This document shows positions 516-59,369 of a DNA stretch of 64,000 bases, piece after piece (the stretch's first letter is position 1; the number at the start of each line of letters is the position of its first letter). The notes beneath the pieces are model-generated. The model saw nothing but the letters and a program-made list of their open reading frames with translations. It did no database searches and was not told the DNA's origin. Origin of the DNA: Zopfochytrium polystomum. Taxonomy: Eukaryota; Chytridiomycota; Chytridiomycetes; Chytridiales; Chytridiaceae. The stretch is taken from positions 62,001-126,000 of the forward strand of contig JAIVFJ010000143.1 in assembly GCA_025765615.1 (NCBI GenBank), written 5' to 3'. Made by a program: the position numbers and the translations under genes.

Positions 516-1379
516 TCAGGCCGAAGGCAACGCTGCAACAGCCTCCTTTACATACTGCTTCCAATTGTAAGGCGGGTGGCCAAGCAACTCGACCAAATCC
601 GTGGTCTCGACATACATTCCGCCCTTGGCGGACGCAGATTCGGTAGTAGTCGCTACCTCGACCACCCTCGGGTGCAACCCGAATCCCAAATACAGCTTTC
701 CCAACTCTTCCACAGGCATAAAGATAGACTTGACCGCCTTGCCGGAGTGCAGCGAAATCTCGTCCGCCAACTCCTCCATCGTGATTGCCTCGCCCCCGAG
801 CTCGTACACGACCTTCAGCGGCCTGCCCTCGTTGGCGAGGACCGCCGCATTCACGGCCGCCTCCGCAAAGTCCCGGCGCGGGGCGGGCGACACCTTCGCT
901 CCGTTCTTCGCGTTGAGGAGCGCCCCGGTCTTGGTGATCGTGGCGAGCTGCTCCGTCCAAATGTCGAGGTACAAGCCGTTGCGGAGGAACGCGTGCTTGA
1001 GGCCGGACGCCGCAATGTACTCCTCGGTAGTCGAGTGGTCGGGCCCGACGCTGATTTCCGTCGTCGGCGCGAAGAGCATGGACGTGTAGAGGATCGTGGT
1101 CACGCCGGCCTGCTTTGCGGCGTCGACAGTGTTGCGGTGCTGGAGGAGACGGTCACCCTTGTAGTCGCCGCTTGAGATGAAGATGAGGGTTTTGACGCCA
1201 GCGAGGGATGCAGCGAGGGTTGCGACGTCGGATTCGTAGTCGAACTTGCGGGCTTCAACCCCCTCGCGAACTTTCGACGGGTCGCGGGCGAGGGCGACGA
1301 AGGGTTGACCTTTGCCATGAAGGATGTCGACGATGATCTTTCCGAGATTTCCAGTGGCGGCGGAGACGGCGATGGACAT
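516..1379 (-). CDS. NmrA-like atypical short-chain dehydrogenase/reductase
   Basis: Uninterrupted 287-residue reading frame. The N-terminus is a beta-strand followed by a dinucleotide-binding loop, AATGNLG at about residues 7–13, and then an ARDPSK stretch (about 31–36) where NmrA and NAD(P)H:quinone oxidoreductase-like proteins contact the NADP ribose phosphate. A second strand with FISSGDYKGD and HRNTVDAAKQAGV matches the segment of this family that ends the Rossmann half. There is no classical YxxxK pair, as expected for the atypical NmrA branch. Length fits the family (about 280–300). Family knowledge says such proteins are cytosolic quinone or isoflavone-like reductases, or redox sensors that bind NAD(P) without catalysis; the sequence does not decide between them. 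The ATG at 1379 is the first before the Rossmann strand, and an AT-rich stretch (about 1440–1460) lies upstream. Confidence 0.85.
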   Translation of the reverse strand: MSIAVSAATGNLGKIIVDILHGKGQPFVALARDPSKVREGVEARKFDYESDVATLAASLAGVKTLIFISSGDYKGDRLLQHRNTVDAAKQAGVTTILYTSMLFAPTTEISVGPDHSTTEEYIAASGLKHAFLRNGLYLDIWTEQLATITKTGALLNAKNGAKVSPAPRRDFAEAAVNAAVLANEGRPLKVVYELGGEAITMEELADEISLHSGKAVKSIFMPVEELGKLYLGFGLHPRVVEVATTTESASAKGGMYVETTDLVELLGHPPYNWKQYVKEAVAALPSA

Positions 1380-2685
1380 TTTTGGCGGGGATGCAAGCTA
1401 GCAGAAGTGAAGTATGCGATGCGGGGTTATGAGCGAGTGTACGGGGTATTAATATACTACATTCATCGTGTATATTTGTAATTCCTGAAATAAAAAGCCG
1501 CCAGTTACCGGCTGTGGATCATTTGTTATTTTCTTTTTAATTATTTTCGTTTTTTTTTTTGTTTTTTTTTGAATCAACACTTTGCTGGTCTTTTTTTTTT
1601 TTTTTTCCGGAGTACCGACCAAACCACACACGGACACGGAACCTTGTTCCGCAACAGAAAGGCGAAGATGCTCTCTCTCTCTTACTCTCTTACTTGTTGT
1701 ACATGTTACATGTTACATGTAAATTGACAAAAGTGATGTATTAATATTGCTCGCTCCATCCAAACGGACGAAAGAACAACATCCGTGTTTGTATCATTTT
1801 CTTTCTTTTTTTTCTTTTTTCTTTCATCATATGACACTGTCCATTTCTTTTTTGGGAGATGGAAAAAAGGAAGAAAAAAAAAGAAAGAGGATATTCAGAC
1901 GATTCCAACAGTTGTAATTAAAACCGTAAAAGGTTTTTGGGGTGCTGTGCTCTGATTTTTGAACACTCAAACTGGCTTTGGGGAATGAATCGCTGCCCTG
2001 TTCCTGTTCTCGCTCGTCAGGCGGTCTGGTTGTTCATTCTTCGATTGCTATTTCCGCCGGCGACGCGACGCCGCGCTCTACCGCACCTGCTCGCTCATCT
2101 TCTTCACGGCGGGGCGATTCATCGGATGATCGGCGCTGCTCAAGTTTGCCTCGCACTCTACTCCCCCATCACAACCACAATGGCCGCCTTCCTCATCGTC
2201 GGCTCCGGCAAGGGCCGGCGTCGCCATCATCACGTCCATCTCCTGTTTCGAGTCCATCACGTTTCCGACGCCATGGAGGACGTCGGAAAGCATCCCCGCC
2301 GCGGCGCCTTGTTCGTTACCTCGTCCCTCGTGTCTTCCCACTCGGCGTTGCATCTGTCGGTGTCGGTCTGCGGATACGGCGAATATCAGCCTCGCAACTT
2401 GGCTGTGGGCCAGGTGTAAGGCTACGCGTTAAAATATCAGTCCCTTATTCTCTTATGATCATGTCATATGGGAAGCGTCACAACGGCAGCCGTTGTTGAG
2501 GGTGGTTGCAAGTAGCAACGATTGAAGATTGGGCGGCTCTTTTCTCCACCCCTTTCTTCCGTGCCTCAGCCCCCCACCAACACTTTCAGTTCCAACCCCC
2601 CTCCACTCCCCCCAACCACCCACCACAACTCACCAACCCTGAATACCTTCAACCCAACTACTACCTGCGACCGTGCGAGTGAAGA
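1380..2685. other. Intergenic region with T-rich homopolymers
   Basis: Divergent promoter region between the NmrA-like gene and the receptor gene. It carries long T and T/C runs (about 1549–1607 and 1798–1825). A minus-strand 91-codon frame at 2078–2353 and overlapping plus-strand frames of similar length exist, but none shows a motif and they overlap in several frames, so I do not call a gene. The last 170 bases before 2686 are pyrimidine-rich, as is common upstream of fungal starts. Confidence 0.5.
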
Positions 2686-5600
2686 ATGCTCTCCTCTTCC
2701 TCCTCCTCCTCCTCCTCCACCATCTCGTCATCCTCCTCCTCCCCCCAGTCCTCCGACCCCGGTTCGTCTCCGCCGCCTTCGGGCAGCTCAAGCCCGCCGG
2801 TCCCCACCACTTCGCCCGATTGCACCCGAACCTTCTCCTTTCAGTCAAAACACCATAAAATCAAGGTTGATCCGCTCAGCGGTCTGGACGATCTGATCGG
2901 CCGCGTCCGCTTGCGCCTCAACCTCGCCCGCTCGCTCTCGATCGAGATCGCGTACGCCGACGGCAACGGGGACGTGTACGTCCTCGGCCCGGACGATGAC
3001 CTTCCCAGCGTCCTCTCTGAAACCACAAAATTCCAGGTGAGCCGCCATTTTTCCAATATTTCTTGGCCTTCAATTGAAACGCTTCCCCAAAAAATGAGGT
3101 GACCGCGACTACTTCGGCTCTTACTGCTCCTGCTCCGAGTCCTTCTCCAACCCCGGCCGAGCCCGTCGCGTCACCAACGCCAACCGTGGATTTCGATTTC
3201 TTTTTTGACAACGAGAAACACCGAATAAAGTTCGAGCACGGCACCTCGCAAGATGCGCTCCTTTCACTTATCGCGAAACGCCTGGGTTCGCATGACCCCC
3301 TGAAAGTGACATTCAAGGACGCAGCAGGGGACGTCTGGGTCCTCGGGCCCGACATTAGTGTCGAAGATGTCGTCGCCCAGAAGTTCAGGATCGACGTGAA
3401 GGCGTTGCCCGCTCATTCACCACCCAAGGAGGACGACAACGCCTTGCGGAAACCGAGCAAAGGCCGCTCTCGCCGAGGGACAAACGCTTCGCTCCCGGGA
3501 CTCTCGGCACTATCCGAGGGTTTGCTAAAGACAATTTTCCCCTCGAAGGTCCCCTTCGCAAGTGCAAACTGGAAGTGCAGGCAGAAGTGCACCGTGCACG
3601 CTTACTTTGTAAGGTGAGACACTCCGTTAGAGAAAAAAAATATTTATTTCCTTACTCCTTGAACGCACCGACTCGAAGTTATCGACATAATTCAGAAAGC
3701 CACTTGGCCACTGCGCTTGCGCCAAGGCTTGAAAACGCGATTCGGGACGAGCAGATGGACACAACCGAAAATCCTGACAACCAAGCGCACGAGTTTAGAC
3801 ACGTCTTTCTCGACGTGGACTGTCTAGCCGATGGGGAGCCGTGGGACGAAAACTTCATGTTCGGACTGTTTCATAGCCAGGTCATTATTCTCCTCTGCTC
3901 CGAAGCCGGCATGGAGCAGATGAAGAAAGCCAGCGGTCGGCCCGACAACGTGCTCTTAGAGGTAGTTGTTCATGCGATTTTGGCTTTTTCGCTCCCGGGC
4001 CAATCTGAAACTATGTTACATAATTACCCACAGTGGGAATGGGCGCTTCATTTAGCCGAGAATGACAATCGCCTCATCCTGCCTGTTTTCTTGTCGCGCC
4101 AGCGGAGCGTTATGCTTGATGGGGATACTCAACGGCGTCAAGCTATCCTCCCTTTCAACACGTTCAAATTTGACGATTTCCCGGACGCCTTGCATTGCCA
4201 TCCGCGCAGTCCCAGACGAAAGACCATTCGGAAAACCATTCAGGATATTTTTACATTCCAAGGCCCAAAAGTCGACCCTAACGACTTCAACAGGTGAAGT
4301 TTGGTGGGCCGTTCTCTGTAAAACAAACCCGTTGACCATTTAAGATCCCCGTCGACCTCTTCAGGATCATCGTCGCAGCGCGAGAAATCATGAACCGTCG
4401 CCGTCTGAGTAAGCCTCCGGCAGCCCACGCTAGCGACTTCACCTTCGAGAGCGCAATGTTTCAAGAGCTTTTGTCCCCGCTCAGCGCCTCCGAATTTGCG
4501 ACACTGACAGAGTGGCTCCAGCCAGTACACGACCTTATGGATGAAGAGCGTCGTCGTTTGCTCGCGCAGCTTTCCCCAGGAACTCGGCAGTGGCTCTTTC
4601 CTCTCGTCCACCAGTTTCTGACGAACTCGCCTCACCGCTTGCTCCAGATTCACGCCTCGGCTGGCGCTGGAAAATCTATTATGGCGGCCGTCGTGGCCGA
4701 CGCGCTACAAGCCAGGAGCCTGCTCGGTGGCGTTTTCTTCGCAGGTTCGGACGGTCAGCTCGGTGGCAGCGTTCGCGCATTGATCCATACGATGGCGCAT
4801 GGCCTGGCCAGGATGAGCGGCTTTATTGGAAGGAGGCTTCTTGAGGAGAGTCGCAAAAATCGTGACTTACTGCATGGCTCCGTCCCCGAAGTTTTTGAGG
4901 CACTCATCATACGCCCCCTGCAATTATCGTTCCAGTCAAAGGCTCTCTTTGATCACCACAAGATCACGTTTATCATAGATTCAGTTGATGAATGTGGCTG
5001 CGATCTGCTCGAGCTGTTCCTGGACCCCAACAGCGGTCTGCCGGACCAGATCAAGCTCATTATTACGCGACATCCAGACGGTGAAGAGCTCCCTCACTTT
5101 CCCACGAAGCTCAAGGAGTCGATGAACAAAGGCTCCAAAATCATTCGCGTAGACGACCAAAACCTCGATAATTTCTATGATGTTCGCAAATATGCCCAAA
5201 CGTTTCTCAGCCCTCACCGCTTAAGGCGAGAGGAGATCTTGGACGGCTCCCGCCTCCTCGTTGAAAAGTCCGCCGCGACGTTCTTGCGCCTCGTCGTCGC
5301 CTGCAACATCCTTTTAATGGACGCTTCTTCTGGTGCGCCCGTCACACTCGAAATGATCCAAGCCATACCGTCCCGCAGCATCGACGAACTTTACCTCTGG
5401 GCGATGAAAAGCATGGCGAGAAACTTTGAGCACCCATATTTCCTTTTCCACGTCCTTGCCACCATCGCCACTCACGGACCGCTTACGGAGGTGGAAATGG
5501 AGGAAAAGCTATCCTTTCTCGGCAGCCTACAAGATGATGATTCTACTGTCAGACACGTCTGGATCGGCATCGCCGTCCGTAGACTGGGGCCAGTCCTTAA

Positions 5601-8498
5601 TGTCGACCCGTCCAACCGAAAACTTCGGCTAATCCATCGCTCCGCCAAAGCAATATTGGTGGACCCCATTTTCCTCGTCCCTACAAGCGCCCCCGTCATC
5701 ACAATCCCGCTGAACCCCGCCGTCGCCACTCCCACCACCCCGCGACTCCGCATCGAAACCCAGTGCGCCTCAGACAGCCTCAGCGTCCCTCTGATGTCAA
5801 GAATCTTATCCGCCGCAAGCACAATGACCGGGAGCGGCCACCCCCACCCTCTTATGCGAGGCGCCGCCAGGAGGAACGAGCGCTTCCCCTGTGACACTTG
5901 CAGCCGCCCCGTCCGCGTTTTCGAGCCGATCTTCTCGTGCGTCAAGTGCGACTATGACGAATGCGCACGTTGCTTTGCAGACTCAAACTCGCATCGCTCC
6001 GAAAGCGGTGGTGCGTATATATTCTGTGCTGAAGCCGTCTCACCCCCCCAAAAAAAAATTGAATGAATAGACCCGTCCATCATCGAACTTGGCACACCGC
6101 TCGAGAAAGCCGCTGCGCTGCTCAACGTCGAAGCCCATTGGGATGCTCACAGCCTCGCGACTGAAGTGAAAAACTTTGAGTGCAGGTGGATTAGGTGAGG
6201 CTCTTCAAATTTACCAACGCCTGGAACCCGATAGGCAATGCTCGATCCGCTATATTGAAGGAGGATCTCGGCAACACACTAATTACTTGAACAAATATAG
6301 AGTACCTGTGACGAAGTGCGACCGTCTCATGCACCCGGACCTGCTCGCGGTCCTCCCGGACTCATCTTTTGTCGCCTTCCTCTTCCATCGCGACCAAGGC
6401 CTTGTTCAAGTCTCGATCCGGTCTCCGCACTTTCGGTTGCTGCAGAACTACGCGGACTCGGCGCAGTTGCACTTAGGCGATTCCAAGTTTGGGACCATTT
6501 TGGCTGTCGACGACTCGTACAGAGATCGCTTCGGCTTCGTCGTCGCCCTCGTCGACCACAATGCGCCAAAGTACTTCGCACTCGAGTTCATTAGCGAAGA
6601 GAGGATCCTTCCGCTGTCCGACATCGATTACGAAGTAAGTATTGGAGAAGGGGTGTGGGGAGGGTTTGGGGTCGGTCGAGTTCGAGCTTAAATGTTCCTG
6701 TCGTGGCAGTCGGAGCTCCGTCTCCTCCCACCTCTGTGCGACGTTAACGGAAGCGAAAAGGCGCCAGGTTTGTTCACATTGCGACACCTTCAAACTTGCT
6801 AAATGCAATCTAACGCAGTGACCGATCTTGATGCTTTTTGGGAGCCCGAGAGAAGCCGGGAGTGGTTAGATTAAATTAATTCCGCTCCTAGTTGTTTCTT
6901 CGTTCCCCATTTTGCTTCCGCGCCCAAAGATAGCCATTGAGACCGACCACCCTTGGCACATGAAACCCCCACAGGTTGACCAATGACCAACTACTCGACG
7001 CCATTCTTCGTTTCGATCAGACCCGGAAGACCCTCGCCTCAAGCTTCGTCCGCTGGATCTCCGACCCAAAAAACAGGAAGAACGTTCTCCTCGCCGTGTC
7101 CGCCACGGTCCAGGTCTTCTGGGTGACCGTCACCGATTGGGTCGAGTTTCGCAAGGTCCAAACGCCCGGTGAGCTTTTCGCTTAAACGCTGACTTTCTGC
7201 GCGATGTGACTCATTCTCTGGCTCACTCTAAATCCCTCATCCTTGGTCCCGTTTCTAACAAAATCAACTGTACATAAACAACAAGTGCTCGACAAGCCAA
7301 TATTCGACTTCGAAGTTGAGCGGCCCCGCGGCTTCGGCGGCACCTCTCCGTCCTGTCCGGACTGTGCGACGCCTTACAGCGAAAAATGCGCCGGCTCTTG
7401 CCACGCACTGCGTCAGCGCAACGATGCGAAGGGCATAAGCGTAAGCTGGTAAGCGTATTTGCCGTCTCGGTCTCGTTTCGGTCTGACACCCCCAACCCCG
7501 TCTTTTCCCCGCTGCTAACTCCCCAAGGCTCGTCACCACACGGTCGACCCTCTTCTGCTCCGACGTGCCCGAATTCTCTGACTTGCTGCCAAAGGGCCCG
7601 CTCGGCGACCGGGACGCGTACACCATCGTGTACTCGAGCGCAGACGTGAGCACCTCTCTTCTCCCGATCGTTGCGCCGATTGGGTTTTCCTCTCGGGCGC
7701 CCTCCGACGCCCGCTAAGCCGTGACACACGTTAACCCCCCCAAAATGACAAATCCCTCAACCAACCTAGCTCAACCCACTCGGCTCGCACGCAGCTCCCG
7801 TCCCGCCAGCCATCCGGGCCGCCCTCGCCGCGGCCTTTGCCTCCATCCCGAATCTCCCAGCTGCCGAGCTCACGCCGGCCCCCGAGCCGCTGGGAGTACC
7901 GCGGTCGCTCACTCCGGAGTTGCCCCAATCGCCTGCGCCCACCGACCGGAAGGATTTGCCTGTCCCACCAGCCGCCATTGAGCACGCTTCGCTTCCTCGT
8001 AGGCCCAGCAACGCCACGGCCTTGGCCGTTTCGTCTTCGGTGAATGTCAACGCCAACGCAAACGGCGGAGCAAACGGCTTGTCCGGCGGGCCGAAATTCC
8101 TGGGCTTCAAGCTAAAGTGGCCCAACACCGCCTCCGCGTCGTCGACGTCGACGGTCGTCCCCTCGGTGTCCCCCTCACCTCCGCGGGTTCCGGACATTCC
8201 TCATCTCCCTCCTTTAAGCTTTCCAAGCGAATTACTTGCAACGCCGCGAGGCTCGTCGCCGCAGCCGTCGTTGCCTAGGTCCGACGTCGCCGGGGTCCAC
8301 CAGCTCGTCGCGCGCGCGTCGGACGTCCGCGTCCGCTCGGCCCGCGCCGTGGACGTCGCGAGGAGGCCGGCGGCCCAGGTCCTGTCTAGGACGAAGCGCT
8401 TCGCTGTCCTGCCCGTCGCGGCGGCGGCGGCGGCGGCGGCGCCCACGAAGGCCCCGCCGGCCGTTGAGGACTTTGTGACCGTGCCGCTGCTGGTGTAG
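2686..8498 (+). CDS. NLR-type receptor, PB1–PB1–TIR–NACHT–ZZ, about 1,606 residues
   Basis: Thirteen exons: 2686–3036, 3099–3613, 3679–3961, 4034–4293, 4365–6010, 6071–6194, 6301–6634, 6710–6767, 6819–6864, 6975–7168, 7286–7448, 7528–7645, 7770–8498. Together they give 4,821 nt, an intact frame. Seen in order: Ser-rich head; two PB1-like modules (about 48–117 and 147–222), each with an acidic GDV(Y/W)VLGPD stretch; a TIR domain (about 283–455) with box 1 YFVSYRH, then VFLDVDCLADGEPW, and LLEWEWAL carrying the candidate NADase glutamate E383; a NACHT ATPase with P-loop GAGKS (about 570–574) and Walker B FIIDSVDE (672–679); a winged-helix-like stretch; a ZZ-type finger (C979, C982, C995, C998, C1003, C1006, H1013). 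The last ~590 residues have no repeat I recognise, one Cys cluster (exon 11) and a Pro/Ala-rich tail. By family knowledge TIR–NACHT proteins are intracellular signal-activated switches. PB1 plus ZZ recalls p62/NBR1, so selective autophagy or oligomeric scaffolding is an inference. Confidence 0.85.
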
Positions 8499-33205: not shown

Positions 33206-33214
33206 ATTGAAGAA

Positions 33215-34384
33215 ATGCTGAACAAGGGATTCATCCAACCTCCCAAGTCGCCAAGTGGAGCTCCCATCTTTTTTGTCAAGAAGAAGGATGGGGGACTGAG
33301 ACCCTGTGTGGACTACAGAGATCTCAATGAGATGACAGTCAAGAACCGCTATCCACTGCCTCTCATCTCTGAATTACTGGACAAACTGAGCCATGCAAGG
33401 ATATTTTCGAAGATTGACCTCAGAGGTGCCAACAATTTGGTCAGAATTAAGCCCCAGGATCAATGGAAGACTGCCTTCAGATGCAAATACAGTCACTTTG
33501 AGTACTTGGTCATGCCCTTTGGACTTACCAATGCTCCAGCTATTTTCCAAGGCATGATGAATGACATCTTCAGGGATATTCTGGACCTTTTTGTCATTGT
33601 CTACCTGGATGATATCCTGGTATTTTCGTCCAACACTGCAAGCCATATGGGACTTGTCAAGACTGTCTTGGAGAGACTCAGACAGCATCACCTCTATGCA
33701 AAGCTGGAGAAGTGTGAATTCCACAAGACCTCCATTGAGTTTTTGGGGTACATTGTGTCTGACAAAGGGATCTCCATGGCACCAGACAAGATCCAAACTA
33801 TTCTTGAATGGAAGGCTCCAAATTCCATCAAGGATGTTCAAAGCTTCCTTGGGTTTTGCAACTTCTACAGAACCTTCATTGCCAACTATTCTGCCATAGC
33901 CAAGCCTCTCACTGATCTCACCAAGAAGACGCACAAGTTTGAATGGACCCCAGCAGCAGAGCAAGCCTGGCTAGCTCTTAAGACAGCAACCACAAGTGCA
34001 CCACTCCTTAAGCATGTGGATCCCTTGCTTCCCTTCACCTTGGAAACTGATGCCTCAGACTATGCCCTCGGTGCTGTTCTGTCCCAGCCAAGCTCTCAGG
34101 ACCCCTCTGCTCCTCTGCATCCAGTGGCATATTACTCCAGGAAGCTGAACAGTGCTGAGTGTAACTACACAGTCCATGACAAGGAGTTGCTTGCAATTGT
34201 GGAAGCATTCAAATTCTGGAGACACTACTTGGCTGGTTCTAAAGGCATCTCTGTCTATTCTGATCACAAGAACCTCACCTTCTTCAGGGCAAGGAGGTTG
34301 CTCAAGCAGAGGCATGCCAGGTGGGCTGAACTGCTCTCTGAGTATGACTTTAAGCTGTGCTATTCTCCTGAACACTGTGGCTGA
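33215..34384 (+). pseudogene. Reverse transcriptase and RNase H of the gypsy element
   Basis: Well preserved 389-codon frame. RT motifs: [27 protein letters not shown] (usual Y/H replaced by N), MPFGLTNAP, and the catalytic [11 protein letters not shown] at about 33596. RNase [16 protein letters not shown] near 34047 and [10 protein letters not shown] near 34255. The frame ends at 34384 because of a one-base shift; the continuation TVADAPSRR is in the next frame. Confidence 0.9.
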
Positions 34385-57665: not shown

Positions 57666-59369
57666 TCAGTAGTATCCGTAAAAGCCGACCTTGTCGTTCG
57701 CGGATCCCGACCTGCCCGACAGCGCGACGATGCGCATTCCAGCGGGTGGGGTGTTTGTGTAGCACTGGCTGGTGGTGGTTCCAATGTCGATGGACGAGCC
57801 GTCCGTCATCTTAAACTGCACGTAAAACACGCGGCGGCCGCCGCCGTACTGGCCGATGCACGAGATGGTGCTCGCGACGTTGACGCCGGGCGCGAGGGTG
57901 ATGGACTTTGTTGCCGAGGTGCCGACGTCGCCGTGGACCGAGGTGTACGTGTCCGAGGAGCGAGCGTCGGCGTAGGTGATTGCGATCTGGTCGACCCTGG
58001 TGCCGCCGGCGAGGAAGATCTTTGAAATGCGGGCGTTGCGGCCATAGGCGCCGACCCACCACGAGTCGTCGTACGGGTCTCCACCCGTGGCGCTGCCTTG
58101 CTCGCCGGACGCCCAGAGGTCGGTCGTGACGTTAAGGCCGTTGCCCGAGTAGCCGTAGGTGCTGTTGACCTTGTTTGTGCGGTAGAGCGCGTCGACAAAG
58201 GTGGAGGACATGCCGAGGCCTTCGGCGCCGTACCCGACGCCCGTGTCCGGGTTCCACATTTCCCAGACGCCGTTGACGGAGATGGCGGCGGCCCAGCGGT
58301 CGACGGCGGCGGAGGCAATGTCCGGGCGGTTTCCGGTGGTGAGGAGGGCGTGCACCACAAACCAGTTGGTGAATCCCCAGCTGGGGCCGCGCCAGAGGAG
58401 GTTGTAGACGTACTTGGGGTGGTAAGTCGACTCGGCCTTGCTGACGGACGGGAACGGGTACGCGGTCCAGAACTTGTTGGGGTCGATAATGTCGGCGATG
58501 ATGGCCGACCGCTGGTCGCTGGTGAGGGAGCGGAGGAGGAGCGGGAACAGCGACTGTATTGTCTGCACGGAGGACGACTTGAACGAGCCGTCCTGGTCCT
58601 TGAAGGTGGTGACAAAGCGTTTCAGAGAAGCGTCCCACATGCGTGACTTGATGGCGGCCTCGTGGGCGGCGTTTTTGGCGTAGTACTTTGCGGCTTGAAC
58701 TGGGTCGTACTGGGAGGCGAGGTCGCCCAGCACACCCCAGCCGGCGGCGACGAGGGTGTTGATGGCAATGTCCTGCACGACAAACCAGTTTGCCGTGATG
58801 GAGGACTCTGCCGACTGTCTGGCCAGAATCGCAGTGTAGTTGTTGTTCCACGTGTTTGCATAGTACGACTGCAGCTCGGGGAACTTCAAGTACAGGATGG
58901 GATAGTCGACGAGGTCGCTGCCAGTGGGGGTAAAGTGCCAGGCGGCGTCGTAGGCGGGGGACGCGTCGATGCCCGTCTCCCACGGGTGGACGGTCACGAC
59001 GAGGCCGTCGCCGAGATCCCTCGTGTTGCGCCACCAGTCGAGGTACGCGGCGACTTTGGGGACCTGCTCCTTGAGGAAGGTGACGTCGCCTGTGTTGTTG
59101 AAGATGGTCTGGAGGGCCCACGGGATGGTCGGCATCTGCGAGACGCTGTTTCCAGACCCCGAGGGCCACGATATTTCCTCGGGCACCATGCCGTTCGCGA
59201 CCTGGAGCAGCCGGAGGGGCAGCAGCAGGAGCAACAGCAGAAGCAGAAGCAGCGAGCATCGTCGGGGGTTGATATTGTCGTTGTTGTTGTAGTTGTTGTT
59301 GTTGGTGAAGGGAGGGGATTGTTAGTATTTTGTAGTTGGGCGGAACGAAGTAGAGGGAGCGAGTGGAGT

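Follow-up and report, generated by a model that had tools for sequence, protein, structure and literature searches.

Plant proteins that unite PB1, TIR and NB-ARC domains have been described (PMC9786959). In the available text of that source, the two proteins AsTIR19 and AsTIR57 of Arachis stenosperma carry an N-terminal PB1 together with a TIR and a nucleotide-binding domain, and are truncated TIR-NLRs. The gene described here lies in a 64-kb stretch of DNA of the water-living chytrid fungus Zopfochytrium polystomum (the window, meaning the whole stretch that was analysed) and has the same kinds of domain, with a NACHT-type NTPase in place of the plant NB-ARC. Pfam at E ≤ 1 returned neither NB-ARC nor LRR, the families of plant TNLs, for the window protein. 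The union of PB1 with TIR in plants and in chytrids is presumably convergent.

p62/SQSTM1 and NBR1 share other parts of the layout, since they carry a PB1 with an acidic segment and a related kind of finger, and they are not known to have a TIR or NACHT. In the window protein the ZZ match stayed under its cut-off and UBA was absent from the Pfam results at E ≤ 1. p62 has been reported, in the available part of the source, to stabilise NOD2 oligomers in trans through its UBA or TRAF6 parts and not through PB1 (PMC3577775).

Among fungi, Podospora HNWD proteins (HET–NACHT–WD40) combine a TIR-like effector, NACHT and WD40 (PMC12881547). They have HET where the window protein has TIR, the available text mentions no PB1, and their WD40 repeats are absent from the window gene; neither HET nor WD40 was returned for the window protein by Pfam at E ≤ 1. 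TIR domains have been reported in Chytridiomycota NLRs by a paper that, in its available part, cites others for this (PMC9815663); “PB1” occurs 0 times in its main text. By text search, “chytrid” is absent from the available text of a source cited for chytrid TIR-NLRs (PMC7075850). As far as their available texts go, a 2014 survey had no NLR hits in chytrids (PMC4986451) and a 2025 survey gave NLR numbers down to one in Chytridiomycota species (PMC12258605). Neither the PB1–TIR–NACHT layout nor its expansion into a family was found among the literature matches listed, which were mostly without subscription papers and preprints. An earlier sequence-only reading had called the combination undescribed. 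This held for PB1–TIR–NACHT among those matches, but chytrid TIR-NLRs (PMC9815663) and plant PB1–TIR–NB-ARC proteins (PMC9786959) are in print, as the available parts of these sources state.

Gene model and domains

The features of the window gene are listed below by window position.

2686..8498, + strand: whole gene, 13 exons, 4,821 nt CDS, 1,606 aa
2686-3036, 3099-3613, 3679-3961, 4034-4293, 4365-6010, + strand: exons 1-5
6071-6194, 6301-6634, 6710-6767, 6819-6864, + strand: exons 6-9
6975-7168, 7286-7448, 7528-7645, 7770-8498, + strand: exons 10-13
2836..3024, + strand: PB1a, aa 51-113, exon 1, with the acidic OPCA-like segment YADGNGDVYVLGPDDDL
3192..3407, + strand: PB1b, the second Pfam PB1 stretch, about aa 149-220, exon 2
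3594..4293, + strand: TIR in exons 2-4 (about aa 283-469), interrupted by introns after FV|S and LLE|W
3959..3961, + strand: E383 codon, which ends exon 3; candidate NADase glutamate
4579..5067, + strand: NACHT-type NTPase, NPHP3_N at aa 542-704; own-genome match C143:66579-67067
4654..4677, + strand: Walker A-like ASAGAGKS, aa 567-574
5068..5667, + strand: remaining NTPase-linked region, to about aa 904, common to paralogs
5836..5973, + strand: C1_2/ZZ-like zinc finger, aa 961-1006 (HxHPL, CxxC, FSCxxC, CxxC)
6071..7645, + strand: tail module without a Pfam family, aa 1019-1364, exons 6-12
7770..8498, + strand: exon 13, Pro/Ala/Ser-rich C-terminal tail, aa 1365-1606, open frame, least certain exon

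The 13-exon frame of exactly 4,821 nt that the sequence-only reading had proposed was borne out, as splicing at GT/AG gave 1,606 aa with no internal stops. Automatic splicing with weak codon scores produced a 16-piece gene, which was over-split and was dropped for the in-frame 13-exon chain. The codon score of exon 13 was no better than that of another frame, a run of GCG triplets lies within the exon at 8418-8441, and a search of the genome for its relatives matched itself alone. Exon 13, with its predicted join to exon 12, is the weak point of the gene model. The Ser-rich start of the protein is also predicted and is unproven. Rfam at gathering cut-offs gave no match in the 64-kb window. Judged on the DNA, the observation that the window gene is a real multi-domain frame was confirmed.

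The proposal of two PB1 domains was upheld for the two as a pair. The whole protein scored 24.9 bits with Pfam PB1 over two stretches (cut-off 23.6), but each domain alone fell under the cut-off, PB1a with 19.1-19.7 bits by the ends chosen and PB1b with 17.6. The case for two PB1 domains is made by the score of the two stretches together (33.2 bits), by alignment A3 and by paralog PB1s that passed the cut-off (27.8 bits for PB1a of paralog C110 and 24.7 for the PB1 of paralog C171). All 10 rows of A3, from eight genes, matched Pfam PB1 at E ≤ 1; D48 and D59 are nearly invariant in it, and the acidic OPCA-like segment is conserved. The PB1b domains of the window gene and C110 are 47% identical. 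In self-polymerising (type I/II) PB1 domains, strands 1 and 2 hold basic residues opposite the OPCA. The A3 rows have basic residues from the first conserved Phe to the Ile column, ahead of the acidic segment, and a strand-1 Lys is not evident. Head-to-tail PB1 assembly is possible on this pattern. Searching the PDB with the family PB1 profile at E ≤ 1 gave 11 matches, nine of them PB1 chains and two unrelated and weak; the PB1 chains included an NBR1 homolog (the best, E 4.5e-5), Cdc24, PKC zeta and Par6. The single-sequence PDB search returned no PB1 chain.

The TIR domain was identified with Pfam TIR_2 at 28.4 bits on the whole protein and 36.0 on the segment (cut-off 28.0). On the window protein, the profile searches placed both TIR and the PB1 pair over their cut-offs. 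TIR_2 was matched at E ≤ 1 by 11 of the 11 rows of alignment A2, in which the E383 column is nearly invariant. The glutamate that had been picked out as a candidate NADase residue is conserved: it is present in 16 of 17 genes with a readable TIR (window included), and one paralog (C90) has Gln at that position. An intron directly after the Glu codon is also found in C171; in other paralogs it was judged from the gap between matches. We take E383 to be the counterpart of the known catalytic Glu, by motif. Many TIR domains have a Trp four residues before this Glu, and the window TIR has an Asn there. A single-sequence PDB search for the TIR returned ubiquitin hydrolases alone, at E above 0.02, and no TIR chain. 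As the family TIR profile likewise drew no PDB match at E ≤ 0.01, the candidate NADase function is read from the family and the Glu. The window TIR may cleave NAD, and the receptor may polymerise.

The NTPase had been called NACHT, and this name holds by way of NPHP3_N, which Pfam placed at 54.4 bits (cut-off 24.8); the NACHT family proper reached 13.1 (cut-off 26.7), and the latter passed in C171 with 30.9 bits. The first position of the Walker A-like motif is Ala in the window gene and Gly in the 12 other genes scanned. The cysteine-rich segment after the NTPase had been read as a ZZ finger, and this name did not hold: on the whole protein ZZ scored 14.2 bits (cut-off 21.4) and C1_2 scored 30.2 (cut-off 26). 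On the finger piece alone C1_2 rose to 36.6 and ZZ, second-best at 18.7, was still under its cut-off. By these profile scores the finger is better called C1/ZZ-like. It shares the open exon 5 with the NTPase.

The tail module matched no Pfam family. In its own genome the module matched, besides itself, one RING-finger protein, at C93 (37%, E 2e-10); with the C110 tail as query, the window tail was found (32%, E 8e-4). At the C93 locus (L056), positions 455-1795 hold a frame with a RING finger (Pfam) and the same unnamed tail module, and no NACHT. The tail module may be a sensing or binding module. With regard to the layout of STAND/NLR proteins, the window protein has a P-loop NTPase and an N-terminal effector, the TIR. 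C-terminal superstructure-forming repeats were not found, as Pfam returned no repeat family and the motif scan no WD motif.

Paralogs and relatives

In the assembly that contains the window (80.16 Mb, 761 contigs), six-frame searches found at least 132 places like the C171 PB1 and at least 128 like the C171 TIR exon. The window PB1s or the Pfam PB1 model as query gave 35 places each, an under-count compared with the at least 132 found with the family PB1. For NPHP3_N, the best 150 of 231 candidate places were used. Linkage was counted on the same strand, with NPHP3_N 0.2-2 kb downstream of TIR and PB1 0.3-1.5 kb upstream. Among the matches listed, 93 TIR places had NPHP3_N downstream, and a PB1 was present upstream in 85 of them, the window included. 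When the PB1 and TIR places were put at random, PB1–TIR pairs averaged 0.14 and never exceeded 2 in 200 trials, so the linkage goes beyond chance. The 85 triples involve 84 distinct PB1 places, and one gene may account for two of the TIR places (e.g. C12). C110 is outside the 85, its PB1 and NTPase being absent from the matches listed. An earlier count of 33 triples came from hand-picked lists in which the window, TIR matches in second exons and further rows were missing, and it was discarded. Some loci are near-identical, such as C66 and C191, and could represent second haplotypes or recent duplicates; the number of genes per haploid genome may therefore differ from 85. TIR domains had been described as rare in fungi, which is not so in this genome, with at least 128 places of the subfamily and 85 Pfam TIR_2 places. 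From sequence, the family has the look of an extensive intracellular sensor repertoire, here in a fungus of an early branch.

Like the window gene, C171, C200, C146 and other paralogs have PB1, a TIR with an intron after the Glu codon and a NACHT-type NTPase. They differ in having one PB1, in the models read, and WD40 repeats instead of the finger and tail. WD-repeat motifs were found downstream in 10 of 11 sampled paralogs, C110 apart; the remaining locus (C60) ends too early. The same motif scan found no WD motif in the window gene or C110. The C171 model is PB1–TIR–NACHT–WD40 with 1,604 aa, and its first 847 aa passed the cut-offs for PB1, NACHT and NPHP3_N, while TIR_2 remained under (27.0 against 28). 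At this locus (L057), positions 3675-5132 hold a WD40 array of 11.5 copies, with a period of 126 bases and 67% matches. No regular repeat array was called at L059. The frame of C200 (L058) is broken within the TIR exon in comparison with C171, by a pseudogene or an assembly error.

Protein-database relatives were P0001, P0002, P0003 and P0004; two of the searches behind them scored the best 8000 and 7993 candidates. Only one Z. polystomum protein, P0004, was among the matches, against dozens of loci in the genome. P0004 is DFJ73DRAFT_851612, and all of its 1,193 letters were found in C110. It joins PB1b, TIR, NTPase, finger and tail in one independent deposited gene model, the order of the window gene. 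In both genes a further PB1 lies upstream; that of C110, the one scoring 27.8 bits, was omitted from the deposited model. Pfam at E ≤ 1 returned no PB1 for P0004 itself, its PB1b piece scored 19.7 bits, under the cut-off, and the C110 finger scored 20.1 with C1_2, under the cut-off of 26. NCBIfam gave nothing over its cut-offs on P0004 or P0001. Five intron places of P0004 were matched by eye to the 12 of the window model (FI|S, LLE|W, before IIV, before the tail and after ECRxxR); the others differ. The two genes have diverged to 41% identity in the NTPase region (window aa 509-904, tblastn), and a 15-row tree of this region paired them at 100/100. Of the 12 inner branches of this tree, which was made without loci having short NTPase pieces alone (L038, L041, L043, L045 and L046), 6 have good support; the branch leading to Athelia is very long. 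This sequence evidence sets the window gene and C110 apart as a divergent pair, each with two predicted PB1s, finger and tail, and no WD motif.

P0001, from Entophlyctis sp. JEL0112, is a TIR–NACHT–WD40 protein that is 35% identical to the window protein over 599 aligned TIR and NTPase positions. It differs in its WD40 tail, and the deposited protein begins inside the TIR, so the N-termini are not comparable. Dinochytrium P0003 has a TIR with ankyrin and LRR matches, and Athelia P0002 has NTPase and WD40 among its best 25 families.

Predicted function and alternatives

The layout PB1–PB1–TIR–NACHT–C1/ZZ finger–tail belongs to a divergent member of a large PB1–TIR–NACHT(–WD40) family, whose domains, order, expansion and conserved Glu are shown by the searches above. 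We predict that the window gene encodes an intracellular receptor of the STAND/NLR type, a TIR-NLR scaffolded by PB1 that acts as an immune or non-self switch, and give this reading a probability of about 0.58. It draws on the domains, the order in P0004, the linkage in 85 of 93 TIR places, the Glu in 16 of 17 genes and the precedent of Caenorhabditis elegans TIR-1, for which the available text of the source describes higher-order assembly of a TIR NADase (PMC8923663). The points against it are the PB1s that are each under the cut-off, the PB1 that Pfam did not return for P0004, the lack of a TIR match in the PDB, the changes of Trp to Asn and of the Walker Gly to Ala, the lack of a repeat sensor and the TIR_2 score of 27.0 in C171.

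If this reading is correct, the NACHT module would keep the protein inactive at rest. The C-terminal module (finger and tail; WD40 in most sampled relatives) would sense a cue, and this would set off nucleotide exchange and oligomerisation. The PB1s, with their acidic OPCA-like segment and the basic residues near their start, would nucleate or extend the assembly, either homotypically or between family members. The clustered TIRs would then use E383 for NAD+ cleavage or to make a nucleotide signal, and the cell would die in a regulated way or be defended against mycoviruses, parasites or non-self.

A different role for the TIR is possible but unlikely: it may be a non-enzymatic adaptor, with PB1 and TIR building only a signalling scaffold for the recruitment of other TIR proteins; the genome has several families of these. 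The 85 TIR_2 places, the stronger of them beside Sel1-repeat or STAND-like frames, the Gln of C90 and the Asn in place of the Trp of the common TIR motif would fit an adaptor, but the conservation of the Glu in 16 of 17 readable genes argues against one. The gene itself could be a join of two, a PB1–TIR–NACHT receptor and a tail gene, or exon 13 at least could lie outside it. We consider this improbable. Exon 13 has no frame-specific codon signal and no relative in the genome, and the tail module also occurs in the RING protein frame without NACHT; however, the finger lies in the open exon 5 of the NTPase, and the deposited C110 model unites NTPase, finger and tail with matching intron places.

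Two other explanations concern the process in which the receptor would act, and each has only a very small chance of being right. An autophagy or cargo receptor of the p62/NBR1 kind, with PB1 and zinc finger, might have gained TIR and NACHT. The PB1 and ZZ-like finger, and the NBR1 homolog as best PDB match of the PB1 profile, point this way, but ZZ missed its cut-off where C1_2 passed, UBA is absent from the Pfam results at E ≤ 1 and the nearest relatives are NLR-like, so that the p62/NBR1-type autophagy link suggested by the sequence-only reading is unsupported. The gene might also serve allorecognition (vegetative non-self) rather than immunity, like the HET–NACHT–WD40 genes of Podospora. 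This would agree with the effector–NACHT–WD40 layout of the sampled relatives and the 126-base WD repeat array of C171, but the window gene has no WD motif and L059 no regular array, and we know of no fusion incompatibility in chytrids.

Within the PB1-scaffolded TIR-NLR reading, a more specific and quite tentative idea gives the window gene and C110 the role of hub or “helper” NLRs. The pair, with two PB1s each and no repeats, would serve as a dock, through PB1, for the PB1–TIR–NACHT sensors, most of which seem WD40-ended, and would seed a mixed PB1/TIR filament that burns NAD+. If this is true, a plant-like sensor–helper logic arose separately in an early fungal branch and was wired by PB1. 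In the family the assembly domain PB1 is coupled directly to a TIR effector, and approximately 85 PB1–TIR–NACHT places in a chytrid assembly would make early-branching fungi a place to study the origins of TIR-NLR repertoires outside plants. A response to viruses could be tested because a cultured Z. polystomum strain, WB228, exists, from which dsRNA and total RNA have been prepared according to the available part of the source (PMC7482067); the strain of the genome may differ.

Other features of the genome and window

Much stronger TIR_2 scores than that of the window were found at three other TIR places (L009, L011 and L016). The TIR of L009 lies beside Sel1 repeats, that of L011 is also over the ThsB_TIR cut-off, and that of L016 neighbours a frame in which DUF7779 and a STAND match under its cut-off were found. 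At C18:431070, C67:207370, C98:201695 and other places, TIR_2 lies upstream of NPHP3_N in open frames of approximately 405 aa; this group is perhaps a second, shorter TIR–NACHT family.

In the window itself, the receptor gene is adjoined by an NmrA-like NAD(P)-binding protein at 519-1397 (- strand). The reverse transcriptase and RNase H of a retroelement, Ty3/gypsy-like by eye, lie at 33206-34381 (+ strand). At 57669-59321 (- strand), a glycoside hydrolase (MGH1-like/GH63) and a jacalin-like lectin domain share one open frame.
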